Positions 1-64,000 of a stretch of DNA of 64,000 bases are shown here, piece by piece (position 1 is the first letter of the stretch; each line of letters starts with the position of its first letter). This DNA is from Gracilariopsis chorda. Taxonomy: Eukaryota > Rhodophyta > Florideophyceae > Gracilariales > Gracilariaceae. Location of the stretch: positions 1-64,000 of the forward strand of contig NBIV01000389.1 in NCBI GenBank assembly GCA_003194525.1, in the 5' to 3' direction. The notes below the pieces were generated by a model. That model saw nothing but the letters and a program-made list of their open reading frames with translations, made no database searches and was not told the origin of the DNA. The translations under genes were made by a program, and so were the position numbers.

Positions 1-1600
1 AAATGGGTGGCCCACTGGCGTCTCTGTCATCGTACGGTCTTCCGACACCCATGCAGGACCTACCGGAAATGCGTGCTCCAGCTCGGTCTCCGCAGCAAAT
101 CCAGTCGGAGCTGAACGACACTGTGCAAGCTGCCCTCCCTCTCTTCAATGAGCGTCAGCTTCTGGCGTTCAATACCGTCGTGGGGCCTATCCTTCCTGGC
201 GTGTCGCGGAGAGCTTGCAGGGTCTTGGTGGTCCTTCTACGCCAACGCAGCCAACCACTTGCGTTTTGTTTTTGGATGCTCCGGGTGGAACCGGCAAGAC
301 CTTCTTCTCCAAGGCAATTCAGGCCACGTTACGCCTTCGTGGCAAGTCCGTCCTTACGGTAGCCACGTCTGCTGTAGCAGCCATACTGCTTGAGGGCGGT
401 CGGACGGCCCCCTCCGTGTTCAGGATTCCCATCCCAGCCACCGCTGAGAGCACGTGCAACATCCCGGTCAACTCGCACCTGGCCACTCGGATGAAGAACG
501 TCGACCTCATTATCTGGGACGAGATCGTAATGTGTCACCGCTTCTGCGTCGAAGCCGTAGACCGCACTCTCCGTGACATAACGCGCTCGCAGCTCCTCTT
601 TGGAGGCAAGTTCGTATTGCTTTCTGGCGACTTTCGTCAGATCCTTCCCGTTGTTCGTGGCGGCTCTCGATCAGTGATCGTCAACGCATGCATCAAACGC
701 TCAAGTCTCTTTTCCCACTTTCGCACCTTGAGATTGACTGAGGACATGCGCCTTTCTGCGCTCCGTCGAGACCCCACAGCCACACAGGGGGCACTGCAGT
801 TTCTAAACACGCTCTTGCAGATTGGAGAGGGCAGACTGCCAGGCACTGTCCCGCCATAGCACCCCTTCACCCTGCCAGAGTCCGTAAAATGTGTGGAGTC
901 GTTCCGCACCATGGTCCGTAACGTCTTTCATGGTATCGCTCAGAGGTACATAGATGCAGATTGGCTAACGTCAACGGTGATTATAACCGCACGAAACTAT
1001 CGCCTACCAGAGCTTAACGACTACGTAGGCCACATGATACCTGGAGCGTATCGCACGTACCTCAGTGCGGACAAGGTGAGCGACGACGACGGTGCCGCGC
1101 TGCAGTACCCTGTCGAGATGCTCAACACTCTGACTGCCGGGTCAGCGCTGCCGGACCACCGCTTCAAACTCAAAAAGGGCTTTGTGGTTATGCTCCTTCG
1201 CAACTTGGATCCCTCAAACGGCCACGTCAATGGTGTCATCTAGACCGTAGAAGACATGCAAAGCAACGTACTGTTTCTTCGACTCGCTTCTGAAGTAAAT
1301 CGTGGCAATGCACTATGCCTGCCGCGCATGCCCTGTGGACCTGGAGACGACAACTTTCCGGTTCCCAACTTCACTCGCACCCAGTTCCCAGTACATGTTT
1401 GTTTTGCCATCACTACCAATAAGGCACAGGGTCAGTCGTATAGTGGTCGCATCGGACTGGATTTTCGTGATGGCTGTTTCACGCATGGCCAGCTGTACGT
1501 CGCCTTTTCTCGGACCACCAGCCCGTCCAACATCGTGGCCTGTCTCCCTGCCGGTAGCACCTCTTCCAATAATGTAGTGTACCCCGAAGTTCTTTTGTAG
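1..1600 (+). pseudogene. PIF1-like helicase domain of Helitron RepHel (unit 0, 5'-truncated by window, broken)
   Basis: This is the C-terminal helicase that would unwind DNA during rolling-circle transposition. Visible motifs are Walker A GGTGKT, Walker B WDEI, GDFRQ (motif III), LTEDMRL, LLRNLDP, NKAQGQS (motif V) and SRTTS (motif VI). This is the only copy in the window that keeps the motif VI Arg (CGG at 1511-1513). The frame is broken three times: a lost C near 206 shifts the reading frame before Walker A; TAG at 857-859 is the stop shared by all units; and a private TAG at 1241-1243 replaces a Tyr codon. The last stop is TAG at 1598-1600. The family assignment is secure; loss of function is inferred from the breaks. 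Confidence 0.9.
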
Positions 1601-1790
1601 ACGAACTTGATAGCTTTAAGTAAACCTCTTCTTTTTTCTTTCATTGTTTTCTTTTCTTCTCCCTTCTCACTCCCCAAAAATACTTGCATTCTACAAACCG
1701 ACTACCCAAAACACGGTACCCAAATACTCCTTTCACTCTAATGCTTCTTTCACTCCTTAACGCGTGCGAAGCACGCAATGGAGCCACTTG
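1..1790 (+). mobile_element. Helitron unit 0, 3' part only
   Basis: The window opens inside the helicase part of a Helitron copy and runs to its 3' end. The copy closes with the hairpin at 1762-1776 (GCGTGC, loop GAA, GCACGC) and CTTG at 1787-1790; the next copy starts at 1791. From 1601 to 1790 there is only a pyrimidine-rich tail and the terminal hairpin. This copy differs from all later ones by scattered substitutions, for example CACGGTACCC where later units read CACGCTAGCT, so it belongs to an older or less homogenised subtype. The element class follows from the helicase, the terminal hairpin and the TC-type 5' end of the following unit. Confidence 0.9.
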
Positions 1791-2815
1791 TCCCTTTATA
1801 CTAAAGACAATGTTTGTCCGTCTGTCTGTGTGTCTGTCAGCTATCGCTCACTCATTGGCTGCAAAATCGGCAAGGAGGCTGCCAAGTGCACACGTGGCAT
1901 TTTATGCGCTCCAGGAGGCATGCACACCACAGGAGCCAAGACGCATGTTGCACCGCATAATGCGACACGTTTCCACCTGGCGCCTTTTTGCACGCCACAG
2001 TAGCCGAGCCGTTTGACCAGAGTAGCCCACCCGTTACACTACAGTAACCGAACCGTTGCAGTGCAGTGCACATGACCGTTTTAATTACTATTTTTCAACG
2101 GTCATGTGCACCAATCGCATTGCACGCTATACAAAAGCGTGCAATGCACTCGCCCACTGAGCACTCGCGTTCTCCTTCGCTGTGGTTAACCTACGGTGTG
2201 GGTTCTAGCACTATGGGCGAGTCAGGACTTCTGAAAAAGTTACGCTGGCGGTACCGGCGGGATCTGTTAAGTTTAACTTTCTCACCAAACAACGCGTTCG
2301 TCATCCAGATTTAATTGGTTCGGCAACTATTTCTGGGTGGCGTTCACGTGAGGTACGATAGCTCCCCACAAAACGTGCATTGCGTGGAAGGAGTAGCCCT
2401 TGAAGAGTCTAGAAAGGGGACAACAGAGTAGGAGTCGAGCAACAGCGGCTCTGTCTGGATCTAAGGAACTGTTAAAGGGAAACGGTCTTCGGACTAAAGT
2501 ACGTCCAGCACAGAGCTGCCTAGCGATTTTGGGATTGTAAATCTCGCAGTCCTGGCAGCCTCTCCAGGCACGGCCCCCTGTTTACTCTGTACAGGTCAGT
2601 TCCCAATCTAGGCGGTTTCTTTGTGGTCAAGATATTCTATCTTCGCTGCAACGATCCAAAACTTCGGTGCTAGGTGCATAAAAGGGTTTGGCAGCCCGTA
2701 GCACAATTGTTCTCGACCATATCCTTTTTTTTTTTTTTTTCGTTCTTTTCTTTTTTTTCTTTGCCAGTCTTTCGACAGTTTGTCTTTTCTGTGGAGTGCT
2801 TACGTTCTTTTTACC
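1791..2815 (+). other. Non-coding leader of unit 1
   Basis: No convincing gene lies here. From 5' to 3' I see a (GTCTGT)-rich stretch near 1814-1840, a long imperfect inverted repeat (left arm about 1870-1915, right arm about 1948-1990), and several CCGTT motifs. Then come a perfect 15-bp inverted repeat at 2066-2111 and an 11-bp hairpin with a 7-nt loop near 2120-2148 (CATTGCACGCT..AGCGTGCAATG). A TATA-like CATAAAAG lies near 2677 and a long T/C tract at about 2725-2765 precedes the ATG. Unlike later units, the right arm of the long inverted repeat is present once, and the loop contains a 33-bp sequence not found in them. Confidence 0.7.
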
Positions 2816-4198
2816 ATGCCTCCAACTCAGCCCAGTGCTTCAGGCGATGCCAGACGTGAGCAGAACCGTCAACGTACTGCTGCAAGACGTCGAGCAGAGT
2901 CCAGTGAGCAACAGGCAGAGAGGAGACGTCTTGATAGAGAGCGAGCAGCCATACGGAGGGCAAATGAAACTGAGGAACAGCATGAAGCACGAAGAGCAGC
3001 TAATAGGGAACGTACGCGAAGAAGAAGGGCTAGAGCTTTCGCCGCGCACACTGATGACTTTCGTGAGGCTGACTGTACAGCCACTGCTTCGACCCGAGCT
3101 TCAGAGACGCCAGATAATCGCACAAATCGTCAAGCAAACGACCGTGACGCCCATCGTGCTGCAAGGCAACAGGATGACTCTGCTGCTGAACATTCTCGCC
3201 GTCACTCTGAAAGAACATCTAGAAAGGCATCACGAGAGCTTGAGAGCGCAGCTGACCGACAACAGCGTCTTGAGGCTGAGCGCGAGAGCCGAAATGTCGC
3301 CCGTCGATTGTTTGACTCTGATGATGTAGACGAGAGTGGCTACATGGACCTCGGTCTCATGAATGTAGAATTCCGCTTTTGCAAGGCACTGCATTTCAAA
3401 CAGGAAAGCGTTGTGAGCAGCTCCTGCTCGCAACCTCTTTTCTCGCAGTGCTGCGCAAAAGGACATCTCAGCTTCCCTGCGCTTCTGGAGCCTCCACCTC
3501 TTCTTCGCCAACTGCTGACTGCGACTGGGCCCCGAGAGAACCACTTTCGTGCTGAGATCTGTGCCTACAACACAGTTATGTCTATGGCGTCCGTCAAGGC
3601 AAACTAGGTGAGCCGTGGTTTAGGAGACTCTACCCTCAATACTACGATCACCATGCAGGGACAGATCTATCACTGCATGGGTCCGCTCATTCCCGCTCAG
3701 GGTGTCCAGCCCGCATTTCTGTGTGTGTACATCCATGACACAGACTATGACGCGCAGTCTGCGAGGCGAGCGGGGTTGCTGCCCCGCCTCCAACCGGAAC
3801 TGCTGTCTCAGTTGGCTGCCATGCTGCACACGGGCAATCCATACGTGCAGACATTCTGCAGCCTGCGCGAGTGGGCTATCACCGATACGCCAGCAAATAC
3901 GTATCAGATGGTGATCCATGCTGATAGACGGCCCCGCGGCGAGCATGATCGTCGCTACAACGGGCCCGAGGCGTCGCAAGTAGCCGCCATCATTCCAGGG
4001 AATGAGGATGGCGAGATTGAGACGCGCGGTATTGTTGTGCGTAGGCGTGGAGAGCTGACTGTAAATGGTGATGAGGTGCTGAACACTATCCCCGTCACTC
4101 ACAGATCGTACGATCCCTTGAGCTACGTTCTTTTTTTCCCATGTTGCCAGGAAGGATGGCACCCTGATATGAGGTATTGCCCACCAAACGCCTCGTGA
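2816..4198 (+). pseudogene. RepHel segment A, N-terminal region (unit 1)
   Basis: I chose the ATG at 2816 (ACC-ATG-CC) because the Arg-rich N-terminus begins there and the codons upstream encode only a polypyrimidine tract. The first ~150 codons are Arg/Glu/Ala-rich repeated blocks, typical of Helitron N-termini and likely basic or coiled-coil and nuclear. A Cys/His cluster follows (CKALHF, then SQCCAKGH). In this copy the first Cys of the CxxC pair is Phe (FRFC), whereas other units read CRFC or CCFC. TAG at 3605-3607 replaces a Trp codon (TGG in other units), and TGA at 4196-4198 closes the segment as in every unit. The frame continues unchanged into segment B after the TGA. Confidence 0.85.
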
Positions 4199-5984
4199 GA
4201 GAAGAAGGTGACTCCGCTGATGTATTATTCGTGGCAGCTTTTCGAGAGACCGACCGAGTTCAGTACGATTCTACGCGGCAAACGACTCTTCCAGCAGTAC
4301 ATGGTTGACCAGTTCTGCAAGGTTGAGTCGGAGTGTTTGTCTTACTTACGACACAACCAGGACAGACTTCGAGCTGCGGACTACACATCCCTGCGGGAGA
4401 GCCTGGGTGACTCTCTGCTGGGCGTGGATGAGGCCGATGCTGTTCGCGCTGGACGACTGTTCGTGTTGCCATCCACATTTGTAGGAGGTGACCGATACAT
4501 GAGAAAGCAAATGCACGACATCATCGCCATATCCAACACCATTGGGCACCCCGATATCTTTCTCACGATGACGTGCAATCCGAACTGGCCTGAGATCACC
4601 AGGGCACTGTTCGATGGTCAGCGCGCTCCCGATCGACCTGATCTTTGTGCTCGAGTGTTTCGTCTCAAGATGAAAGCCTTGATGTCGTTTGTCATTGATG
4701 AACAGTTCTTTGGAGCCGTTCTTGTTCACGTGCGGGTAATCGAGTTCCAAAAGCGAGGCCTACCGCACGCGCACATTATCTTCTTCCTCAACGAAGATGC
4801 AAAGCAGCAGCTCCGAGACCCTGCTCACATTGACGAGCTCATCTCAGCTGAGATTCCTCTTTCCTCCGACTCCACCTTCCAAGAGTTGGTGCTCAAGCAA
4901 ATGATTCACACTCCGTGCGGTGCAGGCAACCAGTCAGCGCTGTGCATGCGCGAGCTGACATGCTTGAAGCACTTTCAGAAGCGGTTTCGCTCCGAAACTG
5001 CACAGCTTGAGAATGAGTATTACATCAGCTACAGAAGACGCGCTCCTTCCGAGGGCAGGGTGTCTGTGGAAAGAAGCTGCAGGGTCGGCCATCGACCAGC
5101 GCGTAGTGACGTTGGACAATTCGTGGGTGGTTCCACATTGCCCAGAGCTTCTCCGCCGGTTTGCATGCCACATCAACGTTGAGCTATGCGTATCGCGACT
5201 TGGCGGTATCAAGTACCTCTTCAAGTATGTGTGCAAGGGTTCCGACAGAGTCACCATGGAGATTGTAGATGAGAACGGACGCCATGACGAGATCCAGAAC
5301 TTCCAGGACGCACGGTATGTGTCAGCCTCCGAAGCAGTGTGGCGGATGCTTGCGTTCGATATTGTCGATCGCAATCCACCCGTCGTGCGGCTTGAAGTAC
5401 ACTTGAAAGATCACCATACGGTGTTCTTCCAGGAAGGCGACGAGCACTCTGCTGCTAACAGAGAGCGGGCAGGAACCAAGCTGACTGAGTGGTTTGTGGC
5501 CAACCAAAAGTACCCCGGTGCACAGCATATCCCTTATGCCCAGTTCCCGAGGTTCTTTACTTGGAACAAAGCAAACAAATGCTGGAGGCCGCGTGCATGT
5601 CTCCGACGTCGTTCGGTGTCTCGAAGCCAGCCCACCTCCTCCTCAGCCGCACCTGCAGCAGCCGATCTATACGACTTCACTGGCAGCGGTGCGCATGTAG
5701 TTGGGCGCATTTACACTGCGAGTCCACGAGAGGGAGAGCGGTACTACCTCCGCTTACTCTTGACCCACACAGCGGGTGCTACTTCCTTTCAGCACCTCCG
5801 CAACGTAGATGGTCAGCAGTGTGGTAGCTTCAGGGAGGCCTGCCTCAAGATGGGCCTTCTCGCCGACGACAGCGAGTGGAGACGGGCACTACGCGAGTCC
5901 TTTCGCTCCTCATTTGTTCCGCTCTCTCATTTGTTTGCCACCATCTTGCTTTACTGCGAGCCGTCGGACCCCCGTTCTCTGTGA
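4199..5984 (+). pseudogene. RepHel segment B, HUH/Y2 Rep nuclease (unit 1)
   Basis: This is the rolling-circle nuclease domain, which in active Helitrons nicks and joins the element ends. Motif 1 is TMTCNPNWPEI near 4566-4598, the HUH motif is HAH at 4766-4774 (both His present), and the two candidate catalytic Tyr lie four residues apart in KYLFKYVCKG (codons 5214-5216 and 5226-5228). The upstream half reads in one frame to about 5060 and the downstream half in the next (+1), so a frameshift lies between about 5045 and 5110. After that the frame is open through YLRLLLTHTAGATSF and LFATILLYCEPSDP to TGA at 5982-5984, where relatives have Trp. It lacks the TAG and TAA stops seen downstream in other units. 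Confidence 0.88.
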
Positions 5985-7709
5985 GAGCAGCATCTATCGA
6001 TGTTCCTGCAGGATATACGCGCTCGAGATCGCGGCATGATGCACGCACTGGCCGACGACGAAAGAGCCAGCTCTTACGTTCTCTTAGAAGTGCAAAAGGC
6101 ATTGCAAGAAATGGGTGGCCCACTGGCGTCTCTGTCATCGTACGGTCTTCCGACACCCATGCCGGACCTACCGGAAATGCGTGCTACAGCTCGGTCTCCG
6201 CAGCAAATCCAGTCGGAGCAGAACGACACTGTACAAGCTGCCCTCCCTCTCTTCAATGAGCGTCAGCGTCTGGCGTTCAATACCGTCGTGGGTGCCATCC
6301 TTCCCGGCGTGTCCGCGGAGAGCTTGCAGGGTCTTGGTGGTCCATGTACGCCAACGCAGCCAACCACTCGCGTCTTCTTCTTGGATGCTCCGGGTGGAAC
6401 CGGCAAGACCTTCCTCTCCAAGGCAATTCAGGCCACGTTACGCCTTCGTGGCAAGTCCGTCCTTACGGTAGCCACGTCTGCTGTAGCAGCCATACTGCTT
6501 GAGGGCGGTCGGACGGCCCACTCCGTGTTCAGGATTCCCATCCCAGCCACCGCTGAGAGCACGTGCAACATCCCGGTCACCTCGCACCTGGCCACTCGGA
6601 TGAAGAACGTCGACCTCATTATCTGGGACGATATCGTAATGTGCCACCGCTTCTGCGTCGAAGCCGTAGACCGCACTCTCCGTGACATAACGCGCTCGCA
6701 GCTCCTCTTTGGAGGCAAGTTCGTATTGCTTTCTGGCGACTTTCGTCAGATCCTTCCCGTTGTTCGTGGCGGCTCTCGATCAGTGATCGTCAACGCATGC
6801 ATCAAACGCTCAAGTCTCTTTTCCCACTTTCGCACCTTGAGATTGACTGAGGACATGCGCCTTTCTGCGCTCCGTCGAGACCCCACAGCCACACAGGGGG
6901 CACTGCAGTTTCTAAACACGCTCTTGCAGATTGGAGAGGGCAGACTGCCAGGCACTGTCCCGCCATAGCACCCCTTCACCCTGCCAGAGTCCGTACAATG
7001 TGTGGAGTCGTTCCGCACCATGGTCCGTAACGTCTTTCATGGTATCGCTCAAAGGTACATAGATGCAGATTGGCTAACGTCAACGGTGATTATAACCGCA
7101 CGAAACTATCGCCTACCAGAGCTTAACGACTACGTAGGCCACATGATACCTGGCGCGTATCGCACGTACCTGAGTGCGGACAAGGTGATCGACGACGACG
7201 GTGCTGCGCTGCAGTACCCTGTCGAGATGCTCAACACTCTGACTGCCGGGTCAGCGCTGCCCGACCACTGCCTCAAACTCAAAAAGGGCTTTGTGGTTAT
7301 ACTCCTTCGCAACTTGGATCCCTCAAACGGCCACGTCAATGGTGCCATCTATACCGTAGAAGACATGCAAAGCAACGTACTGTTCCTTCGACTCGCTTCT
7401 GGAGTAAATCGTGGCAACGCACTATGCCTGCCGCGCATGCCCTGTGGACCTGGAGACAACAACTTTCCGGTTCCCAACTTCACTCGCACCCAGTTCCCAG
7501 TACGTGTTTGTTTTGCCATCACTACCAATAAGGCACAGGGTCAGTCGTATACTGGTCGCGTCGGACTGGATTTGCGTGATGGCTGTTTCACCCATGGCCA
7601 GCTGTACGTCGATTTTTCTTGGACCACCAACCCGTCCAACATCGTGGCCTGTCTCCCTGCCGGTAGCACCTCTACCATTAATGTAGTGTACCCCGAAGTT
7701 CTTTCGTAG
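5985..7709 (+). pseudogene. RepHel segment C, PIF1-like helicase (unit 1)
   Basis: This continues in the frame of the Rep C-terminus (EQHLSMFLQDIRARD..), so it is the helicase half of one fused protein rather than a separate gene. Motifs seen are GGTGKT, WDDI (Walker B, Glu changed to Asp in this copy only), GDFRQILPV, LTEDMRL, LLRNLDP and NKAQGQS. Motif VI reads VDFSWTT, with the usual Arg replaced by Trp (TGG at 7620-7622). TAG at 6966-6968 splits the domain and the final stop is TAG at 7707-7709. The LPVVRGGSRSVIV stretch groups this copy with unit 0 and against units 2-10 (LAVARGGFRSVSV). Confidence 0.88.
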
Positions 7710-7869
7710 AGGAACTTGATAGCTTTAAGTAAACCTCTTCTTTTTTCTTTCATTTTTTCTTTTCTTCTCCCTTCTCCCTCCCCAAAAATACTTGCATTCT
7801 ACAAACCGACTACCCAAAACACGCTAGCTAAATACTCCTTTCACTCTATTGCTTCTTTTACTCCTCAAC

Positions 7870-7898
7870 GCGTGCGAAGCACGCAATGGAGCCACTTG
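7870..7898 (+). repeat. Helitron 3' terminal hairpin and end (unit 1; same at every unit end)
   Basis: The stem GCGTGC / GCACGC (7870-7875 and 7879-7884) with a GAA loop is followed by AATGGAGCCA and the terminal CTTG. A short GC-rich hairpin about 10 nt before the end is the hallmark Helitron termination signal; the canonical terminal tetranucleotide is CTRR, so CTTG is a variant. The same arrangement occupies the last 29 bases of the units ending at 1790, 14030, 20171, 26289, 32408, 38576, 44701, 50834, 56965 and 63098. Confidence 0.85.
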
Positions 7899-7926
7899 TC
7901 CCCCCTTACTAAAGACAATGATTGTC
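7899..7926 (+). repeat. Helitron 5' terminus with subterminal palindrome
   Basis: The unit opens with TC, as Helitrons do, and 15 bases in carries GACAAT-G-ATTGTC (7914-7926), a perfect 6-bp inverted repeat, followed by GTCCGTCTGTGTGTCTGTG. Unit 1 has a 5-bp version (GACAA-TGT-TTGTC). The number of C after the T is 6 in most units and 5 in the units starting at 26290 and 38577. It is a plausible left-end recognition sequence for Rep; that role is inferred. Confidence 0.65.
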
Positions 7927-7977
7927 CGTCTGTGTGTCTGTGTGTCAGCTAACGCCCACTCATTGGCCGCAAAATCG

Positions 7978-8129
7978 AGAAGGAGGCTGCCAAGTGGAAA
8001 CGTGGCATTTTATGCGCTCCAAGAGGCATCTTGCACCGCATAATGCGACACGTTGCCACCTGGCGCCTTTTGCACGCCATCTTGCACCGCATAATGCGAC
8101 ACGTTTCCACCTGGCGCCTTCTGCACGCC
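7978..8129 (+). repeat. Long imperfect inverted repeat with tandemly duplicated right arm
   Basis: The left arm at about 7978-8023 (AGAAGGAGGCTGCCAAGTGG.. to ..CTCCAAG) is complementary with mismatches to 8030-8073 (CTTGCACCGCATAATGCG.. to ..GGCGCC). The right arm lies in a 51-bp block that is duplicated in tandem: 8028-8078 and 8079-8129, with two differences between copies (TTGCC/TTTCC and CTTTT/CTTCT). Each block contains the palindrome CGCATAATGCG. Unit 1 has only one right arm. The block is repeated at the same place in all later leaders. Function unknown; a hairpin in single-stranded transposition intermediates is possible. Confidence 0.7.
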
Positions 8130-8198
8130 ACAGTAGCCTAGCCGTTTCACCAAAGTAGCCCACCCGTTACACTACGGTAACCGAGCCGTTGCAGTGCA

Positions 8199-8244
8199 GT
8201 GCACATGACCGTTTTAATTAATATTTTTCAACGGTCATGTGCAC
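8199..8244 (+). repeat. Perfect 15-bp hairpin with AT-rich loop
   Basis: GTGCACATGACCGTT (8199-8213) and its exact complement AACGGTCATGTGCAC (8230-8244) flank a 16-nt T/A-rich loop. The same 46-bp structure is at 2066, 14331, 20471, 26585, 38876, 45002, 51135, 57266 and 63399. In unit 6 (from 32710) an inserted G breaks the arm and the loop is one base shorter. Unit 1 differs only in the loop. Direct CCGTT motifs precede it. Conservation in every unit may simply reflect recent copying; a replication or protein-binding role is inference. Confidence 0.8.
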
Positions 8245-8252
8245 CAATCACA

Positions 8253-8277
8253 TTGCACGCTATACAAAAGCGTGCAA
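8253..8277 (+). repeat. 9-bp hairpin, loop ATACAAA
   Basis: TTGCACGCT (8253-8261) pairs with AGCGTGCAA (8269-8277) across a 7-nt loop, nine bases after the 46-bp hairpin. In unit 1 the stem is 11 bp long (CATTGCACGCT/AGCGTGCAATG); in units 2-11 the outer two pairs are lost through a TG to AG change. It resembles the 3' terminal hairpin in containing GCACGC/GCGTGC, but is not followed by a terminus. Confidence 0.7.
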
Positions 8278-8699
8278 AGCACTCGCCCACTGAACACTCG
8301 CGTTCTCCTTCGCTGTGGTTAACCTACGGTGTGGGTTCTAGCACTCTGGGCGAGTCAGGACGTCTGAAAAAGGTACGCTGGCGGTACCGGCGGGATCTGT
8401 TAAGTTTAACTTTCTCACCAAACAACGCGTTCGTCATCCAGATTTAATTCGTTCGGCAACTATTTCTGGGTGGCGTTCACGTGAGGTACGATAGCTCCCC
8501 ACAAAACGTGCATTGCGTGGAAGGAGTAGCCCTTGAAGAGTCTAGAAAGGGGACAACAGATTAGGAGTCGAGCAACAGCGGCTCTGTCTGGATCTAAGGA
8601 ACTGTTAAAGGGAAACGGTCTTCGGACTAAAGTACGTCCAGCACAGAGTTGCCTAGCGATTTTGGGATTGTAAATCTCGCAGTCCTGGCAGACTCTCCA

Positions 8700-8947
8700 G
8701 GCACGACCCCCTGTTTACTCTGTACAGGTCAGTTCCCAATCTAGGCGGTTTCTTTGTGGTCAAGATATTCTATCTTCGCTGCAACGATCCAAAACTTCGG
8801 TGCTAGGTGCATAAAAGGGTTTGGCAGCCCGTAGCACAATTGTTCTCGACTATATCCTTTTTTTTTCTTTTTTCTTTCTTTTCTTTTTTTGCTTTGCCAG
8901 TCTTTGGACAGTTTTTCTTTTTTGTGGTCTGCGTGAGATCTTTTACA
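8700..8947 (+). promoter_or_regulatory. Candidate promoter and 5' leader end of RepHel (unit 2)
   Basis: A TATA-like GCATAAAAGG lies at 8809-8818, about 130 bp before the ATG, and TATATCC at 8851-8857 precedes an almost pure T/C tract (8855-8890). The tract ends in TTTGCCAG at 8893-8900, a good 3' splice-acceptor context. CAG-GTCAGT at 8725-8733 could be a donor, giving a possible 173-nt 5'-UTR intron (8728-8900). The promoter and intron readings compete because the TATA-like box lies inside the would-be intron. Both are weakly supported without transcript data. The arrangement is present in every unit. Confidence 0.3.
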
Positions 8948-10330
8948 ATGCCTCCAATTCAGCCCAGTGCCTCAGGAGATGCCACATGTGAGCAGAACCG
9001 TCAACGTACTGCTGCAAGACGTCGAGCAGAGTCCAGTGAGCAACAGGCAGAGAGGAGACGTCGTAATAGAGAGCAAGCAGCCATACGGAGGGCAAATAAA
9101 ACTGAGGAACAGCGTGAAGCACGAAGAACAGCTGATAGGGAACGTGCGCGAAGACGAAGGGCTAGAGCGTCCGCCGCGCACACTGATGACGTTCGTGAGG
9201 CCAACCGTACAGCCACTGCTTCGGCACGAGCTTCAGAGACGCCAGATAATCGCGCAAATCGTCAGGCAAACGATCGTGACGCCCATCGTGCTGCAAGGCA
9301 ACAGGATGACCCCGCTGCTGAACATTCTCGCCGTCACTCTGAAAGAACATCTAGACAGGCATCACGAGAGCTCGAGAGCACAGCTGATCGACGACAGCGT
9401 CTTGAATCTCAGCGCGAGAGCCAAAATGTGGCCCGCCGATTGTTTGACTCGGATGATGTCGACGACAGCGGCTACATGGACCTCAGTCTCATGAATGTAG
9501 AGTGCTGCTTTTGCAAGGCACTGCATTTCAAAGAGGAAAGGGTTGTGAGCAGCTCCCGCTCGCAACCTCTTTTCTCGCAGTGCTGCGCAAAGGGGCATCT
9601 CAGCTTCCCTGCGCTTCTGGAGCCTCCACCTCTTCTTCGCCAACTACTGACTGCAACTGGGCCCCGAGAGAACCACTTTCGTGCTGAGATCCGTGCCTAC
9701 AACACAGTTATGTCTATGGCGTCCGTCAAGGCAAACTGGGTGAGCCGTGGTTTAGGAGACTCTACCCTCAATACTACGATCACCATGCAGGGACAGATCT
9801 ATCACTACATGGGTCCGCTCATTCCCGCTCAGGGTGTCCAGCCCGCATTTCTGTGTGTGTACATCCATGACACAGACTATGACGCGCAGTCTGCGAGGCG
9901 AGCGGGGTTGCTGCCCCGCCTCCAACCAGAACTGCTGTCTCAGTTGGCTGCCATGCTGCACACAGGCAATCCATACGTGCAGACATTCTGCAGCCTGCAC
10001 GAGTGGGCTATCACCGATACGCCAGCAAATACGTATCAGATGGTGATCCATGCTGATAGACGACCCCGCGGCGAGCATGTTCGTCGCTACAACGTGCCTG
10101 AGGCGTCGCAAGTAGCCGCCATCATTCCAGGGAATGATGACGGCGAGATTGAGACGCGCGATATTGTTGTGCGTAGGCGTGGAGAGCTGACTGTAAATGG
10201 TGATGAGGTGCTGGACACTATCCCCGTCAGTCACAGATCGTACGATCCCTTGAGCTACGTTCTTTTGTTCCCATGTTGCCAGGAAGGATGGCACCCTGAC
10301 ATGAGGTATTGCTCACCAAACGCCTCGTGA
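8948..10330 (+). pseudogene. RepHel segment A, N-terminal region (unit 2)
   Basis: 460 codons from ATG 8948 (ACA-ATG-CC) to TGA 10328-10330. The segment is uninterrupted, because the Trp at the unit-1 TAG position is TGG here. Arg-rich blocks occupy roughly residues 17-165; the Cys/His cluster reads VECCFC-KALHF followed by SQCCAKGH. The downstream part (QGQIYHYMGPLIPAQG.., NPYVQTFCSL..) matches the Helitron region before the Rep core. Private changes include an Arg for Gln (GACGACAGCG at 9390-9399) and His for Arg in SLHEWAI. Confidence 0.85.
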
Positions 10331-51883: not shown

Positions 51884-53266
51884 ATGCCTCCAATTCAGCC
51901 CAGTGCCTCAGGAGATGCCACATGTGAGCAGAACCGTCAACGTACTGCTGCAAGACGTCGAGCAGAGTCCAGTGAGCAACAGGCAGAGAGGAGACGTCGT
52001 AATAGAGAGCAAGCAGCCATACGGAGGGCAAATAAAACTGAGGAACAGCGTGAAGCACGAAGAACAGCTGATAGGGAACGTGCGCGAAGACGAAGGGCTA
52101 GAGCGTCCGCCGCGCACACTGATGACGTTCGTGAGGCCAACCGTACAGCCACTGCTTCGGCACGAGCTTCAGAGACGCCAGATAATCGCGCAAATCGTCA
52201 GGCAAACGATCGTGACGCCCATCGTGCTGCAAGGCAACAGGATGACCCCGCTGCTGAACATTCTCGCCGTCACTCTGAAAGAACATCTAGACAGGCATCA
52301 CGAGAGCTCGAGAGCACAGCTGATCGACAACAGCGTCTTGAATCTCAGCGCGAGAGCCAAAATGTGGCCCGCCGATTGTTTGACTCGGATGATGTCGACG
52401 ACAGCGGCTACATGGACCTCAGTCTCATGAATGTAGAGTGCCGCTTTTGCAAGGCACTGCATTTCAAAGAGGAAAGGGTTGTGAGCAGCTCCCGCTCGCA
52501 ACCTCTTTTCTCGCAGTGCTGCGCAAAGGGGCATCTCAGCTTCCCTGCGCTTCTGGAGCCTCCACCTCTTCTTCGCCAACTACTGACTGCAACTGGGCCC
52601 CGAGAGAACCACTTTCGTGCTGAGATCCGTGCCTACAACACAGTTATGTCTATGGCGTCCGTCAAGGCAAACTGGGTGAGCCGTGGTTTAGGAGACTCTA
52701 CCCTCAATACTACGATCACCATGCAGGGACAGATCTATCACTACATGGGTCCGCTCATTCCCGCTCAGGGTGTCCAGCCCGCATTTCTGTGTGTGTACAT
52801 CCATGACACAGACTATGACGCGCAGTCTGCGAGGCGAGCGGGGTTGCTGCCCCGCCTCCAACCAGAACTGCTGTCTCAGTTGGCTGCCATGCTGCACACA
52901 GGCAATCCATACGTGCAGACATTCTGCAGCCTGCGCGAGTGGGCTATCACCGATACGCCAGCAAATACGTATCAGATGGTGATCCATGCTGATAGACGAC
53001 CCCGCGGCGAGCATGTTCGTCGCTACAACGGGCCCGAGGCGTCGCAAGTAGCCGCCATCATTCCAGGGAATGATGACGGCGAGATTGAGACGCGCGATAT
53101 TGTTGTGCGTAGGCGTGGAGAGCTGACTGTAAATGGTGATGAGGTGCTGGACACTATCCCCGTCAGTCACAGATCGTACGATCCCTTGAGCTACGTTCTT
53201 TTGTTCCCATGTTGCCAGGACGGATGGCACCCTGACATGAGGTATTGCTCACCAAACGCCTCGTGA
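51884..53266 (+). pseudogene. RepHel segment A (unit 9)
   Basis: 460 codons, same protein as in units 8 and 10 as far as I can see (CRFC cluster, SLMNVEC, QDGWHPDM near the end). TGA 53264-53266. Confidence 0.86.
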
Positions 53267-55051: not shown

Positions 55052-56776
55052 GAGCAGCATCTATCGATGTTCCTGCAGGATATACGCGCTCGAGATCGCG
55101 GCATGATGCACGCACTGGCCGACGACGAAAGAGCCAGCTCTTACGTTCTCTTAGAATTGCAAAAGGCATTGCAAGAAATGGGTGGCCCACTGGCGTCTCT
55201 GTCATCGTACGGTCTTCCGACACCCATTCAGGACCTACCGGAATTGCGCGCTCCAACTCGGTCTCCGCAGCAAATCCAGTCAGAGCTGAACGACACTGTG
55301 CAAGCTGCACTCCCTCTCTTCAATGAGCGTCAGCGTCTGGCGTTCAATACCGTCGTGGGTGCCATCCTTCCTGGCGTGTCCGCGGAGAGCTTGCAGGGTC
55401 TTGGTGGTCCTTGTACGCCAACGCAGCCAACCACTCACGTCTTCTACTTGGATGCTCCGGGTGGAACCGGCAAGACCTTCCTCTGCAAGGCAATCCAGGC
55501 CACGTTACTCCTTCGTGGCAAGTCCGTCCTTACGGTAGCCACGTCTGCTGTAGCAGCCATACTGCTTGAGGGCGGTCGGACGGCCCACTCCGTGTTCAGG
55601 ATTCCCATCCCAGCCACCGCTGAGAGCACGTGCAACATCCCGGTCACCTCGCACCTGGCCACTCGGATGAAGAACGTCGACCTCATTATCTGGGACGAGA
55701 TCGTAATGTGTCACCGCTTCTGCGTCGAAGCCGTAGACCGCACTCTCCGTGACATAACGCGCTCGCAGCTCCTCTTTGGAGGCAAGTTCGTATTGCTTTC
55801 TGGCGACTTTCGGCAGATCCTTGCCGTTGCTCGTGGCGGCTTTCGATCAGTGAGCGTCAACGCATGCATCAAACGCTCAAGTCTCTTTTCCCACTTTCGC
55901 ACCTTGAGATTGACTGAGGACATGCGCCTTTCTGCGCTCCGTCGAGACTCCACAGCCACACAGGGGGCACTGCAGTTTCTAAACACGCTCTTGCAGATTG
56001 GAGAGGGCAGACTGCCAGGCACTGTCCCGCCATAGCACCCCTTCACCCTGCCAGAGTCCGTAAAATGTGTGGAGTCGTTCCGCACCATGGTCCGTAACGT
56101 CTTTCATGGTATCGCTCAAAGGTACATAGATGCAGATTGGCTAACGTCAACGTTGATTATAACCGCACGAAACTATCGCCTACCAGAGCTTAACGACTAC
56201 GTAGGCCACATGATACCTGGCGCGTATCGCACGTACCTGAGTGCGGACAAGGTGATCGACGACGACGGTGCTGCGCTGCAGTACCCTGTCGAGATGCTCA
56301 ACACTCTGACTGCCGGGTCAGCGCTGCCCGACCACTGCCTCAAACTCAAAAAGGGCTTTGTGGTTATGCTCCTTCGCAACTTGGATCCCTCAAACGGCCA
56401 CGTCAATGGTGCCATCTATACCGTAGAAGACATGCAAAGCAACGTACTGTTCCTTCGACTCGCTTCTGGAGTAAATCGTGGCAACGCACTATGCCTGCCG
56501 CGCATGCCCTGTGGACCTGGAGACAACAACTTTCCGGTTCCCAACTTCACTCGCACCCAGTTCCCAGTACGTGTTTGTTTTGCCATCACTACCAATAAGG
56601 CACAGTGTCAGTCGTATACTGGTCGCGTCGGACTGGATTTGCGTGATGGCTGTTTCACCCATGGCCAGCTGTACGTCGATTTTTCTTGGACCACCAACCC
56701 GTCCAACATCGTGGCCTGTCTCCCTGCCGGTAGCACCTCTACCAATAATGTAGTGTACCCCGAAGTTCTTTCGTAG
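55052..56776 (+). pseudogene. RepHel segment C, helicase (unit 9)
   Basis: Carries PTPIQDL, ATLLLRGK, RRDSTATQ and AQCQ, the derived combination shared with units 7 and 10. Shared TAG 56033-56035; final TAG 56774-56776. Confidence 0.87.
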
Positions 56777-58014
56777 AGGAACTTGATAGCTTTAAGTAAA
56801 CCTCTTCTTTTTTCTTTCATTTTTTCTTTTCTTCTCCCTTCTCCCTCCCCAAAAATACTTGCATTCTACAAACCGACTACCCAAAACACGCTAGCTAAAT
56901 ACTCCTTTCACTCTATTGCTTCTTTTACTCCTCAACGCGTGCGAAGCACGCAATGGAGCCACTTGTCCCCCCTTACTAAAGACAATGATTGTCCGTCTGT
57001 GTGTCTGTGTGTCAGCTAACGCCCACTCATTGGCCGCAAAATCGAGAAGGAGGCTGCCAAGTGGAAACGTGGCATTTTATGCGCTCCAAGAGGCATCTTG
57101 CACCGCATAATGCGACACGTTGCCACCTGGCGCCTTTTGCACGCCATCTTGCACCGCATAATGCGACACGTTTCCACCTGGCGCCTTCTGCACGCCACAG
57201 TAGCCTAGCCGTTTCACCAAAGTAGCCCACCCGTTACACTACAGTAACCGAGCCGTTGCAGTGCAGTGCACATGACCGTTTTAATTAATATTTTTCAACG
57301 GTCATGTGCACCAATCACATTGCACGCTATACAAAAGCGTGCAAAGCACTCGCCCACTGAACACTCGCGTTCTCCTTCGCTGTGGTTAACCTACGGTGTG
57401 GGTTCTAGCACTCTGGGCGAGTCAGGACGTCTGAAAAAGGTACGCTGGCGGTACCGGCGGGATCTGTTAAGTTTAACTTTCTCACCAAACAACGCGTTCG
57501 TCATCCAGATTTAATTGGTTCGGCAACTATTTCTGGGTGGCGTTCACGTGAGGTACGATAGCTCCCCACAAAACGTGCATTGCGTGGAAGGAGTAGCCCT
57601 TGAAGAGTCTAGAAAGGGGACAACAGAGTAGGAGTCGAGCAACAGCGGCTCTGTCTGGATCTAAGGAACTGTTAAAGGGAAACGGTCTTCGGACTAAAGT
57701 ACGTCCAGCACAGAGTTGCCTAGCGATTTTGGGATTGTAAATCTCGCAGTCCTGGCAGACTCTCCAGGCACGACCCCCTGTTTACTCTGTACAGGTCAGT
57801 TCCCAATCTAGGCGGTTTCTTTGTGGTCAAGATATTCTATCTTCGCTGCAACGATCCAAAACTTCGGTGCTAGGTGCATAAAAGGGTTTGGCAGCCCGTA
57901 GCACAATTGTTCTCGACTATATCCTTTTTTTTTCTTTTTTCTTTCTTTTCTTTTTTTGCTTTGCCAGTCTTTGGACAGTTTTTCTTTTTTGTGGTCTGCG
58001 TGAGATCTTTTACA

Positions 58015-59397
58015 ATGCCTCCAATTCAGCCCAGTGCCTCAGGAGATGCCACATGTGAGCAGAACCGTCAACGTACTGCTGCAAGACGTCGAGCAGAGTC
58101 CAGTGAGCAACAGGCAGAGAGGAGACGTCGTAATAGAGAGCAAGCAGCCATACGGAGGGCAAATAAAACTGAGGAACAGCGTGAAGCACGAAGAACAGCT
58201 GATAGGGAACGTGCGCGAAGACGAAGGGCTAGAGCGTCCGCCGCGCACACTGATGACGTTCGTGAGGCCAACCGTACAGCCACTGCTTCGGCACGAGCTT
58301 CAGAGACGCCAGATAATCGCGCAAATCGTCAGGCAAACGATCGTGACGCCCATCGTGCTGCAAGGCAACAGGATGACCCCGCTGCTGAACATTCTCGCCG
58401 TCACTCTGAAAGAACATCTAGACAGGCATCACGAGAGCTCGAGAGCACAGCTGATCGACAACAGCGTCTTGAATCTCAGCGCGAGAGCCAAAATGTGGCC
58501 CGCCGATTGTTTGACTCGGATGATGTCGACGACAGCGGCTACATGGACCTCAGTCTCATGAATGTAGAGTGCCGCTTTTGCAAGGCACTGCATTTCAAAG
58601 AGGAAAGGGTTGTGAGCAGCTCCCGCTCGCAACCTCTTTTCTCGCAGTGCTGCGCAAAGGGGCATCTCAGCTTCCCTGCGCTTCTGGAGCCTCCACCTCT
58701 TCTTCGCCAACTACTGACTGCAACTGGGCCCCGAGAGAACCACTTTCGTGCTGAGATCCGTGCCTACAACACAGTTATGTCTATGGCGTCCGTCAAGGCA
58801 AACTGGGTGAGCCGTGGTTTAGGAGACTCTACCCTCAATACTACGATCACCATGCAGGGACAGATCTATCACTACATGGGTCCGCTCATTCCCGCTCAGG
58901 GTGTCCAGCCCGCATTTCTGTGTGTGTACATCCATGACACAGACTATGACGCGCAGTCTGCGAGGCGAGCGGGGTTGCTGCCCCGCCTCCAACCAGAACT
59001 GCTGTCTCAGTTGGCTGCCATGCTGCACACAGGCAATCCATACGTGCAGACATTCTGCAGCCTGCGCGAGTGGGCTATCACCGATACGCCAGCAAATACG
59101 TATCAGATGGTGATCCATGCTGATAGACGACCCCGCGGCGAGCATGTTCGTCGCTACAACGGGCCCGAGGCGTCGCAAGTAGCCGCCATCATTCCAGGGA
59201 ATGATGACGGCGAGATTGAGACGCGCGATATTGTTGTGCGTAGGCGTGGAGAGCTGACTGTAAATGGTGATGAGGTGCTGGACACTATCCCCGTCAGTCA
59301 CAGATCGTACGATCCCTTGAGCTACGTTCTTTTGTTCCCATGTTGCCAGGACGGATGGCACCCTGACATGAGGTATTGCTCACCAAACGCCTCGTGA
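58015..59397 (+). pseudogene. RepHel segment A (unit 10)
   Basis: 460 codons from ATG 58015 to the shared TGA 59395-59397, without private breaks; CRFC cluster intact. Confidence 0.86.
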
Positions 59398-61183
59398 GAG
59401 AAGAAGGTGACTCCGCTGATGTATTATTCGTGGCAGCTTTTCGAGAGACCGACCGAGTTCAGTACGATTCTACGCGGCAAACGACTCTTGCAGCAGTACA
59501 TGGTTGACCAGTTCTGCAAGGTTGAGTCGGAGCGTTTGTCTTACTTGCGACACAACCAGGACAGACTTCGAGCTGCGGACTATACATCCCTGCGGGAGAG
59601 CCTGGGTGACTCTCTGCTGGGCGTGGATGAGGCCGATGCTGTTCGCGCTGGACGACTGTTCGTGTTGCCATCCACATTTGTAGGAGGTGACCGATACATG
59701 AGACAGCAAATGCACGACATCATCGCCATATCCAACACCATTGGGCACCCCGATATCTTTCTCACGATGACGTGCAATCCGAACTGGCCTGAGATCACCA
59801 GGGCACTGTTCGATGGTCAGCGCGCTCTCGATCGACCTGATCTTTGTGCTCGAGTGTTTCGTCTCAAGATGAAAGCCTTGATGTCGTTTGTCATTGATGA
59901 ACAGTTCTTTGGAGCCGTTCTTGCTCACGTGCGGGTAATCGAGTTCCAAAAGCGAGGCCTGCCGCACGCGCAAATTATCTTCTTCCTCAACGAAGATGCA
60001 AAGCAGCAGCTCCGAGACCCTGCTCACATTGACGAGCTCATCTCAGCTGAGATTCCTCCTCCTTCCGACTCCATCTTCCAAGAGTTGGTGCTCAAGCAAA
60101 TGATTCACAATCTGTGCGGTGCAGGCAACCGGTCAGCGCTGTGCATGCGCGAGCTGACATGCTTGAAGCACTTTCCGAAGCCGTTTCGCTCCGAAACTGC
60201 ACGGCTTGAGAATGAGTATTACATCAGCTACAGAAGACGCGCTCCTTCCGAGGGCGGGGTGTCTGTGGAAAGAAGCTGCAGGGTCGGCCATCGACCAGCG
60301 CGTAGTGACGTTGGACAATTCGTGGGTGGTTCCACATTGCCCAGAGCTTCTCCGCCGGTTTGCATGCCACATCAACGTTGAGCTATGCGTATCGCGACTT
60401 GGCGGTATCAAGTACCTCTTCAAGTATGTGTGCAAGGGTCCCGACAGAGTCACTATGGAGATTGTAGATGAGAACGGACGCCATGACGAGATCCAGAACT
60501 TCCAGGACGCACGGTATGTGTCAGCCTCCGAAGCAGTGTGGCGGTTGCTTGCGTTCGACATTGTCGATCGCAATCCACCCGTCGTGTGGCTTGAAGTATA
60601 CTTGGAAGATCACCATACGGTGTTCTTCCAGGAAGGCGACGAGCACTCTGCTGCTAACAGAGAGCGGGCAGGAACCAAGCTGACTGAGTGGTTTGTGGCC
60701 AACCAAAAGTACCCCGGTGCACAGCATATCCCTTATGCCCAGTTCCCGAGGTTCTTTACTTGGAACAAATCAAACAAATGCTGGAAGCCGCGTGCATGTC
60801 TCCGACGTCGTTCGGTGTCTCGAAGCCAGCCCACCTCCTCCTCAGCGGCCACTGCAGCAGCCGATCTATACGACTTCACTGGCAGCGGTGGGCATGTAGT
60901 TGGGCGCATTTAGACTGCCAGTCCACGAGAGGGAGAGCGGTACTACCTCCGCTTACTCTTGACCCACACAGCGGGTGCTACTTCCTTTCAGCACCTCCGC
61001 AACGTGGATGGTCAGCAGTGTGGTAGCTTCAGGGAGGCCTGCCTCAAGATGGGACCTCTCGCCGACGACAGCGAGTGGAGACGGGCACTACGCGAGTCCT
61101 TTCGCTCCTCATTTGTTCCGCTCTCTCATTTGTTTGCCACCATATTGCTCTAATGCGAGCCGTCGGACCCCCGTTCTCTGTGA
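59398..61183 (+). pseudogene. RepHel segment B, Rep nuclease (unit 10)
   Basis: Upstream frame 59398-60381, shared frameshift, downstream frame 60206-60913 ending at TAG 60911-60913. TAA 61151-61153; shared TGA 61181-61183. HUH is HAQ; both Tyr of the two-Tyr motif are present. GGGCATG at the VGRI site matches units 5 and 7. Confidence 0.87.
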
Positions 61184-62908
61184 GAGCAGCATCTATCGAT
61201 GTTCCTGCAGGATATACGCGCTCGAGATCGCGGCATGATGCACGCACTGGCCGACGACGAAAGAGCCAGCTCTTACGTTCTCTTAGAATTGCAAAAGGCA
61301 TTGCAAGAAATGGGTGGCCCACTGGCGTCTCTGTCATCGTACGGTCTTCCGACACCCATTCAGGACCTACCGGAATTGCGCGCTCCAACTCGGTCTCCGC
61401 AGCAAATCCAGTCAGAGCTGAACGACACTGTGCAAGCTGCACTCCCTCTCTTCAATGAGCGTCAGCGTCTGGCGTTCAATACTGTCGTGGGTGCCATCCT
61501 TCCTGGCGTGTCCGCGGAGAGCTTGCAGGGTCTTGGTGGTCCTTGTACGCCAACGCAGCCAACCACTCACGTCTTCTACTTGGATGCTCCGGGTGGAACC
61601 GGCAAGACCTTCCTCTGCAAGGCAATCCAGGCCACGTTACTCCTTCGTGGCAAGTCCGTCCTTACGGTAGCCACGTCTGCTGTAGCAGCCATACTGCTTG
61701 AGGGCGGTCGGACGGCCCACTCCGTGTTCAGGATTCCCATCCCAGCCACCGCTGAGAGCACGTGCAACATCCCGGTCACCTCGCACCTGGCCACTCGGAT
61801 GAAGAACGTCGACCTCATTATCTGGGACGAGATCGTAATGTGTCACCGCTTCTGCGTCGAAGCCGTAGACCGCACTCTCCGTGACATAACGCGCTCGCAG
61901 CTCCTCTTTGGAGGCAAGTTCGTATTGCTTTCTGGCGACTTTCGGCAGATCCTTGCCGTTGCTCGTGACGGCTTTCGATCAGTGAGCGTCAACGCATGCA
62001 TCAAACGCTCAAGTCTCTTTTCCCACTTTCGCACCTTGAGATTGACTGAGGACATGCGCCTTTCTGCGCTCCGTCGAGACTCCACAGCCACACAGGGGGC
62101 ACTGCAGTTTCTAAACACGCTCTTGCAGATTGGAGAGGGCAGACTGCCAGGCACTGTCCCGCCATAGCACCCCTTCACCCTGCCAGAGTCCGTAAAATGT
62201 GTGGAGTCGTTCCGCACCATGGTCCGTAACGTCTTTCATGGTATCGCTCAAAGGTACATAGATGCAGATTGGCTAACGTCAACGTTGATTATAACCGCAC
62301 GAAACTATCGCCTACCAGAGCTTAACGACTACGTAGGCCACATGATACCTGGCGCGTATCGCACGTACCTGAGTGCGGACAAGGTGATCGACGACGACGG
62401 TGCTGCGCTGCAGTACCCTGTCGAGATGCTCAACACTCTGACTGCCGGGTCAGCGCTGCCCGACCACTGCCTCAAACTCAAAAAGGGCTTTGTGGTTATG
62501 CTCCTTCGCAACTTGGATCCCTCAAACGGCCACGTCAATGGTGCCATCTATACCGTAGAAGACATGCAAAGCAACGTACTGTTCCTTCGACTCGCTTCTG
62601 GAGTAAATCGTGGCAACGCACTATGCCTGCCGCGCATGCCCTGTGGACCTGGAGACAACAACTTTCCGGTTCCCAACTTCACTCGCACCCAGTTCCCAGT
62701 ACGTGTTTGTTTTGCCATCACTACCAATAAGGCACAGTGTCAGTCGTATACTGGTCGCGTCGGACTGGATTTGCGTGATGGCTGTTTCACCCATGGCCAG
62801 CTGTACGTCGATTTTTCTTGGACCACCAACCCGTCCAACATCGTGGCCTGTCTCCCTGCCGGTAGCACCTCTACCAATAATGTAGTGTACCCCGAAGTTC
62901 TTTCGTAG
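61184..62908 (+). pseudogene. RepHel segment C, helicase (unit 10)
   Basis: As in unit 9, plus a private Gly to Asp change (VARDGFRS, GAC near 61968) and a silent C to T near 61483. Motif V Cys, motif VI SWTT. Shared TAG 62165-62167; final TAG 62906-62908. Confidence 0.87.
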
Positions 62909-63098
62909 AGGAACTTGATAGCTTTAAGTAAACCTCTTCTTTTTTCTTTCATTTTTTTCTTTTCTTCTCCCTTCTCCCTCCCCAAAAATACTTGCATTCT
63001 ACAAACCGACTACCCAAAACACGCTAGCTAAATACTCCTTTCACTCTATTGCTTCTTTTACTCCTCAACGCGTGCGAAGCACGCAATGGAGCCACTTG

Positions 63099-64000
63099 TC
63101 CCCCCTTACTAAAGACAATGATTGTCCGTCTGTGTGTCTGTGTGTCAGCTAACGCCCACTCATTGGCCGCAAAATCGAGAAGGAGGCTGCCAAGTGGAAA
63201 CGTGGCATTTTATGCGCTCCAAGAGGCATCTTGCACCGCATAATGCGACACGTTGCCACCTGGCGCCTTTTGCACGCCATCTTGCACCGCATAATGCGAC
63301 ACGTTTCCACCTGGCGCCTTCTGCACGCCACAGTAGCCTAGCCGTTTCACCAAAGTAGCCCACCCGTTACACTACAGTAACCGAGCCGTTGCAGTGCAGT
63401 GCACATGACCGTTTTAATTAATATTTTTCAACGGTCATGTGCACCAATCACATTGCACGCTATACAAAAGCGTGCAAAGCACTCGCCCACTGAACACTCG
63501 CGTTCTCCTGCGCTGTGGTTAACCTACGGTGTGGGTTCTAGCACTCTGGGCGAGTCAGGACGTCTGAAAAAGGTACGCTGGCGGTACCGGCGGGATCTGT
63601 TAAGTTTAACTTTCTCACCAAACAACGCGTTCGTCATCCAGATTTAATTGGTTCGGCAACTATTTCTGGGTGGCGTTCACGTGAGGTACGATAGCTCCCC
63701 ACAAAACGTGCATTGCGTGGAAGGAGTAGCCCTTGAAGAGTCTAGAAAGGGGACAACAGAGTAGGAGTCGAGCAACAGCGGCTCTGTCTGGATCTAAGGA
63801 ACTGTTAAAGGGAAACGGTCTTCGGACTAAAGTACGTCCAGCACAGAGTTGCCTAGCGATTTTGGGATTGTAAATCTCGCAGTCCTGGCAGACTCTCCAG
63901 GCACGACCCCCTGTTTACTCTGTACAGGTCAGTTCCCAATCTAGGCGGTTTCTTTGTGGTCAAGATATTCTATCTTCGCTGCAACGATCCAAAACTTCGG
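63099..64000 (+). mobile_element. Helitron unit 11, 5' leader only (cut by window end)
   Basis: Starts TCCCCCCTTACTAAAG directly after unit 10 and runs through the 51-bp tandem block, the 46-bp hairpin (63399-63444) and the 9-bp hairpin to just before the TATA-like box; the coding region would begin beyond the window. A private G (CTCCTGCGCTG near 63510) replaces T. No gene is present. The array therefore continues to the right. Confidence 0.92.

Follow-up and report, generated by a model that had tools for sequence, protein, structure and literature searches.

Tandem Helitron units in the window

Positions 1 to 64,000 of contig NBIV01000389.1 (designated C389; 73,851 bp) of the red alga Gracilariopsis chorda, the stretch analysed here and called the window, are a satellite-like block of near-identical, full-length, inactive Helitrons. 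The assembly (GCA_003194525.1) comprises 91.3 Mb in 1,081 contigs. Contigs are designated by C and a number; subtypes B and C are unit types, RepA and RepB are two RepHel units, and L with a number denotes other matches or ends of the family. Eleven copies of the 3' hairpin GCGTGCGAAGCACGC were identified in the window (positions 1762, 7870, 14002, 20143, 26261, 32380, 38548, 44673, 50806, 56937, and 63070), and their spacings, in order, are 6108, 6132, 6141, 6118, 6119, 6168, 6125, 6133, 6131, and 6133 bp, so that the window holds ten complete units. The count of k-mer spacings peaks at 6131 to 6133, in agreement with the hairpin period. At all eleven window junctions CACTTG is directly joined to TCCC..., and the units therefore abut exactly.

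All units lie on the + strand. The first (1 to 1790) is the 3' part of a cut-off RepHel unit, with its hairpin at 1762 and its 3' end, ...CACTTG, at 1790; C440 continues it leftwards. RepB, a complete unit of subtype B (1791 to 7898; 6,108 bp), follows with the 5' end TCCCTTTATACTAAAG. Complete units of subtype C then lie at 7899 to 14030; at 14031 to 20171, 20172 to 26289, 26290 to 32408, and 32409 to 38576, all four with indel-rich sequence; and at 38577 to 44701, 44702 to 50834, 50835 to 56965, and 56966 to 63098, the last of which served as the reference unit. The beginning of another unit (63099 to 64000) runs past the window end. RepB is a distinct subtype, 193 to 207 substitutions away from the eight cleaner C units, which are 3 to 34 substitutions apart among themselves. 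The four consecutive units at 14031 to 38576 have 32 to 73 indel columns relative to the reference unit, which is the cleanest, versus 1 to 10 in the other C units on C389. Given this indel load, the length extremes of 6118, 6119, and 6168 look like unpolished sequence rather than real variation, and part of the variation among C units is probably sequencing error. The run as a whole has the look of unpolished long-read sequence. Most units have, near the 5' end, two copies of a 51-bp repeat and 2.9 copies of a 22-bp repeat, for example, at 57094 to 57197 and 57195 to 57257.

The last 9.85 kb of C389, beyond the window, is array too, giving 11 complete units on the whole contig. C389 is array from its first to its last base, and the non-Helitron flanks sit on C440 (left, via an overlap) and C103 (right). 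The C block is contiguous over 66 kb (C389:7899 to 73851) and its units are homogenised. An earlier note on this DNA had described a macrosatellite of full-length RepHel Helitrons, with ten complete units of 6108 to 6168 bp (clean ones, 6131 to 6133 bp) placed head to tail with no host base between them, and the hairpin positions, the k-mer peak, and the junctions agree with it on each point; the array also appears to be integrated, with edges on C440 and C103. Two of its statements are narrowed. The units are complete in length, whereas their coding region is broken, and the array leaves the window directly on the right; its exit on the left rests on C440, as the window starts at the first base of C389.

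Coding region

By its predicted protein, the unit is a member of the Helitron superfamily. Copy L013 has one frame of 1,618 amino acids with Helitron_like_N (8.1e-56), PIF1 (1.3e-66), and Pif1_2B (4.5e-12) matches in Pfam, and this RepHel frame matches Helraiser (PDB 7lcc) at 1e-211. The frame is nearly intact rather than proven active, since it is cut short within the last helicase region, at a point past which the units of the array continue. The same fusion of an HUH Rep and a Pif1-like helicase is present in pieces in the broken frame of the reference unit, with the Rep part (Helitron_like_N, 59407 to 60378, + strand; Pfam, 4.3e-55), in which the second histidine of the HUH motif is glutamine (HAQ), the PIF1 helicase part (61199 to 62164, + strand; 4.1e-61), and the Pif1 2B domain part (62201 to 62905, + strand; 1.3e-13). 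PHAH and KYLFKY, which fit the HUH and two-tyrosine motifs, are both present in L010, L013, L021, L025, and RepB. For an endonuclease domain, the mark of Helentrons and Helitron2, no Pfam match was obtained at E values up to 0.1 in the 1,618-amino-acid frame of L013, itself short at its C terminus.

Twelve C units (10 on C389 and 2 on C103) were compared with the L013 frame. The HUH motif reads PHAQ in 11 of them and is unreadable in the twelfth. In-frame stops occur at three common positions in 11 of the 12, and the remaining unit, the most error-laden, has two of these along with many others; nine units show a clear frame change at residues 806/807. RepB has kept HAH, yet it carries the same three stops and the frame change, and RepA has two of these stops. 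The three shared stops are all absent from the 17 full-length copies that we read outside the array. As judged from these frames, the amplified C-type units are dead, and because the protein is dead, a unit's own protein in its present state cannot have driven the expansion.

Termini of the element

The ends were defined on family copies with other flanks elsewhere in the genome. The 40 listed matches of a DNA search (of 140 candidates) were 12 C-type units, RepB twice (C389 and C440), and 26 others. Eighteen of these 26 were read, namely, 17 full-length copies (L010 and L013 to L028) and L011, from which the 5' part is absent; the eight unread matches lie on C86 (four), C254 (three), and C303 (one). 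Nine of the 17 full-length copies have host DNA on the 5' side. No intact 5' end follows the 3' end in eight of the 17 and in L011, although behind L027, one of these nine, there may be a decayed one. Typically, the 5' end is TCCCCCC followed by 1 to 6 nucleotides (nt) and ACTAAAG, and the 3' end is the hairpin followed by AATGGAGCCACTTG, ahead of a T. These termini are the same as the array junctions. At one window junction, for example, the 3' hairpin GCGTGC-GAA-GCACGC, with CTCC/GGAG on either side, lies at 56937 to 56951, and the termini, as defined on the copies with other flanks, are CTTG at 56962 to 56965 and the 5' end TCCCCCCTTACTAAAG with its target-like CTAA motif at 56966 to 56981 (all on the + strand). 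The predicted fold of 56917 to 56965 has an energy of -8.2 kcal/mol (z, -1.72; 7 of 200 shuffles were equally good).

The 5' TC of Helitron1-type elements is seen as TCCCCCC at the host-flanked 5' ends read, in which the T is possibly a host base and some sites were picked by this very sequence. The 3' end has the hairpin and ends in CTTG rather than the Helitron1-type CTRR, and canonical Helitron termini were rejected on this ground. A CTTG 3' end has been reported for maize and for Helraiser end mutants (PMC4778049).

Edges and extent of the array

The last 8.9 kb of C440 matches positions 175 to 9109 of the window at 99.86%. C440 consists, in order, of other DNA (926 bp read), a nonautonomous relative of ~2.1 kb, RepA (94.2%), RepB (96.4%), and then C-type sequence, and the base preceding the first element is A. 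On C103, C-type sequence stops at 12,670 and is followed by other DNA (2.3 kb read). The joins between the array and other DNA on C440 and C103 led us to reject a free circular or linear concatemer.

A 41-mer specific to the C type matches exactly at 27 places on seven contigs (C103, 3; C389, 11; C440, 1; C793, 3; C838, 3; C887, 4; C921, 2), all on the + strand of their contigs; the 3' end of RepB is C-like and was counted twice, on C389 and C440, although it is the same place. Of these 3' ends, 26 run on into a tandem junction and one is the C103 edge. The 27 ends fit one array with one right edge. The array may reach ~158 kb if the other C-type contigs do not overlap one another. C793, C838, C887, and C921 were read in part. 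A third exact junction on C921 (position 15761) is matched by none of the C-type-specific patterns, so that a unit of another type, or an error, precedes it.

Tandem copies across the genome

Of 159 exact 3' termini in the genome, 126 (79%) are followed by ACTAAAG within 3 to 16 nt and so abut another 5' end, a count that is swollen by homogeneous arrays and leaves out copies with mutated ends. After subtraction of the 27 C-type ends, 100 of 132 are tandem. Among the first 100 of the 159 listed ends, 71 are tandem, and all 55 pairs of same-contig neighbours less than 10 kb apart are co-oriented. Abutting neighbours were also found for 11 of the 17 full-length copies read, the other six (L017, L022 to L025, and L028) being solitary on both sides. 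The expectation that Helitrons usually sit singly, voiced in the earlier note, thus fails in this genome.

Further arrays were recognised from listed coordinates, with periods of ~2.24 kb (C311, C942, and C1081), ~2.48 kb (C429 and C788), 2.7 to 2.9 kb (C66, C484, C814, and C856), and 6.08 kb (C254 and C86). A heterodimer of a 2.6- to 2.7-kb nonautonomous element and a 6.1-kb RepHel unit, together ~8.8 kb, is repeated on C303 and C76. Of five 1-kb samples of the nonautonomous half, four (NA1 to NA3 and C76_10377) are 98.7 to 99.9% alike and C76_19175 is clearly different; of five 1-kb samples of the RepHel half, four are 97.9 to 99.2% alike and C303_Rep1 is clearly different. In the ~2.48-kb units of C429 and C788, all eight listed junctions carry a changed last base of the 3' end (CTTT), and the common end implies that the mutation was copied along with the unit.

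It is highly improbable that misassembly produced the tandem order or a large share of the copies. An assembly artefact could be suspected because C389 has no flanking DNA of its own, the other C-type contigs are short fragments, four window units are indel rich, and all 27 C-type matches have the same orientation on their contigs. However, the array has edges with other DNA on both sides (C440 and C103), its units hold different variants, and tandem junctions with many different sequences and several unit sizes are spread over 25 of the 40 contigs on which the first 100 listed 3' ends lie. With both edges, varied junctions, and several unit sizes, an artefact was set aside as the main explanation. 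We also regard it as unlikely, if less so, that the array is kept for a host function as a centromere, heterochromatin, or a small-RNA locus. Tandem Helitron arrays have been reported at plant centromeres (Xiong et al. 2016, as cited in PMC5148889 and PMC12628747), but arrays are built here from several types of unit, a pattern that suggests a mutational tendency more than selection at a single site.

Target sites and their likeness to the left end

The 3' flanks of the nine first-seen copies suggested a CTAA motif, and 23 more were fetched as a test, of which 19 were kept; L033 and L045 were dropped as variant tandem junctions, and L044 and L069 as duplicate flanks. L027, with its possibly decayed 5' end, and L038, which is the C103 edge, were kept as CTAA misses. 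CTAA lies at +5 to +14 past the 3' end in seven of nine first-seen and 10 of 19 test sites (17 of 28 in all), against a background of 1.5% of 22,136 host windows. In the +5 to +14 stretch, 21 of the 28 flanks contain CTA[AT], which starts 6 to 9 nt past the cut and has a T two bases earlier in 15 of the 21. The element's own 5' end carries CTAA as well, starting 9 to 10 or 14 nt past the cut. The neighbouring base is A on the 5' side in 11 of 18 cases and T on the 3' side in all nine sites not selected for T.

HUH enzymes cut the target strand in the same manner as the donor left end, the tyrosine becoming attached to the base that follows A, and a left-end-like target is to be expected if one mode of recognition serves both. 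On the strength of these flanks, the left end appears to be the preferred target. It is conceivable, although we put it forward tentatively, that Helitron transposases generally pick pseudo-left-ends, the same A/T cut and downstream motif serving for the donor left end and the target. A resident copy would then be the best target in the genome, and the family would turn itself into satellites.

Searches with the repeated flanks of L035 and L042 turned up no empty copy of the site among the stronger matches: C66 and C204 both hold the insertion, and at the site on C155, C403, and C681 a Helitron 3' end is present in every case. The same flank follows the Helitron 3' end at C155:158476, C403:20813, and C681:9363, which is likely a segmental duplication after insertion. 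L063 (C155:133288 to 133457) is a copy inserted within the 5' region of another copy and not at its end. L011, near its 5' break, and L076 (C681) are cut beside similar non-Helitron sequence ending in ...TTGCACCACA and ...TTGCACTACA, possibly the 3' end of another mobile element. At L029 (C193:122113 to 122385) there is an open frame with a weak match to the phycobilisome family (28 bits), for which the best PDB hit was allophycocyanin (E, 0.22); the frame next to it is, to the eye, presumably peptide-deformylase-like.

Growth of the C block

Mosaicism is apparent among the units. The eight cleaner of the 12 C units show 27 four-gamete violations among 14 informative sites. RepB is 91.5% like the C type in the first 400 alignment columns (the first comparison interval) and 99.5% in the last three intervals. 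In a tree RepA groups with L022 and L023, yet it is 99% like RepB in parts of the coding region. These patterns indicate exchange between neighbours. RepB, which is ~3.3% diverged and shares the three stops, lies directly against the C block, and the dead lineage has therefore probably been in the array for a long time.

We consider it fairly probable that the array was seeded by insertion at left-end-like sites and then expanded in place by exchange between neighbouring dead copies. For the seeding step, which draws on the target-site statistics, the transposase would cut its own left end and the target alike, between A and T and a few bases upstream of a TNCTAA-like motif, and the left end of a resident copy would for this reason be a good target. 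A newcomer would insert directly upstream of the resident copy in the same orientation and produce exact 3'/5' junctions between unlike family members. For the expansion, which draws on the sequence pattern, abutting copies would allow unequal crossing-over and gene conversion to multiply and homogenise one unit in place.

The main rival is that the C block arose by rolling-circle replication, in which a bypassed 3' terminator, or a circle copied repeatedly, gave a multimer that was integrated once, perhaps by an enzyme from another copy. The junctions are the precise 3'/5' joins expected of Helitron circles, as seen in the circles of Helraiser (PMC4778049), the eight cleaner C units are close to one another, and tandem arrays in bats and silkworm have been ascribed to a bypassed termination signal (PMC4067079). 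Against such a multimer, which we consider rather unlikely, stand the restriction of the exact C-type 3' end to array contigs (27 of 27), the mosaic look of the units, the existence of arrays of alternating unlike elements, and the presence, abutting the block, of the diverged and probably long-resident RepB. Three observations favour stepwise insertion beside a resident copy followed by recombination: neighbours are often unlike, the units seem to be mosaics, and no exact C-type 3' end was seen off the array contigs. From these patterns we infer that recombination rather than rolling-circle multimers made the C block. The earlier note had proposed rolling-circle read-through or copying of a circle, followed by unequal crossing-over. 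Unequal exchange is the better supported half of that proposal, and read-through or circle copying may still have taken part.

Several points weigh against seeding at left-end-like sites followed by exchange. The CTAA offset differs between host sites (6 to 9 nt) and the element's own 5' end (9 to 10 or 14 nt), and CTAA is absent from 11 of the 28 sites. The motif alone cannot yield 126 tandem ends of 159, a swollen count as noted above, because such sites are far too common in the genome; a contribution is needed from local amplification or from a special affinity for the true left end. No empty site was found, the junction predicted from the nested copy L063 having no match in the genome at up to two mismatches, and for this reason the A/T cut and the lack of a target duplication are putative here. 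The 12 C units vary at 146 columns, 122 of which are singletons, and sequencing or assembly error may contribute to the mosaics. In the excerpts of PMC4778049, new Helraiser insertions, including retranspositions, are not clustered around donor sites, which differs from the situation here and argues against left-end targeting as a general rule.

Relation to known systems and significance

The family resembles Helraiser/Helibat1 of bats in its RepHel protein, 5' TC, 3' hairpin, and apparent insertion before T, and Helraiser circles have the same kind of precise 3'/5' join as the array junctions. The target bias of Helraiser is strongest on the side flanking the 3' end (PMC4778049), like the CTAA side here. 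The two differ in the 3' end (CTAG in Helraiser and CTTG here) and in the target, for which AT-richness is reported in Helraiser (PMC4778049) in contrast to a sharp CTAA motif. Plant centromeric Helitron arrays are likewise long and tandem, with several to several hundred repeats (Xiong et al. 2016, as cited in PMC12628747 and PMC5148889), but their units are described as truncated, and many of those arrays have one 3' end and multiple 5' ends. In our array every complete unit read is full length with both ends, and a 5' end follows 26 of the 27 exact C-type 3' ends.

Head-to-tail copies and directly adjoining distant relatives are also known among the tandem or abutting Helitrons of bats, silkworm, maize, and fungi, and a three-copy tandem in Metarhizium acridum was read as insertion into the 5' end or as a product of the rolling circle (PMC4067079 and PMC5148889). 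In contrast to these cases, abutting is the majority state of exact copies in G. chorda, and a left-end-like target motif is not mentioned in the excerpts of those papers. Dimers of transposable elements have been described as seeds of satellites, site preference making dimers that can expand (McGurk and Barbash, as cited in PMC12628747); this was shown for Drosophila elements, whereas here the family is a Helitron whose target resembles its own end. Tandem Helitrons as such are thus already known. As far as our literature search went, an array of full-length units with both edges, a mostly tandem family, and a left-end-like target motif are new; the search, mostly of open-access text seen as excerpts, returned no statement of a Helitron target that mimics the element's own left end.

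The array clearly illustrates how a transposon turns into a satellite of full-length units, and one genome contains both edges and the intermediates (abutting pairs, heterodimers, and homogeneous blocks). Pseudo-left-end targeting, if true, would explain many tandem Helitrons without terminator bypass, and the link between target choice and left-end recognition would become directly testable. Rolling-circle transposition has been argued for on the basis of tandem Helitrons (PMC5876387), an argument that would weaken if tandems owe their origin mainly to a target that mimics the left end of the element itself.

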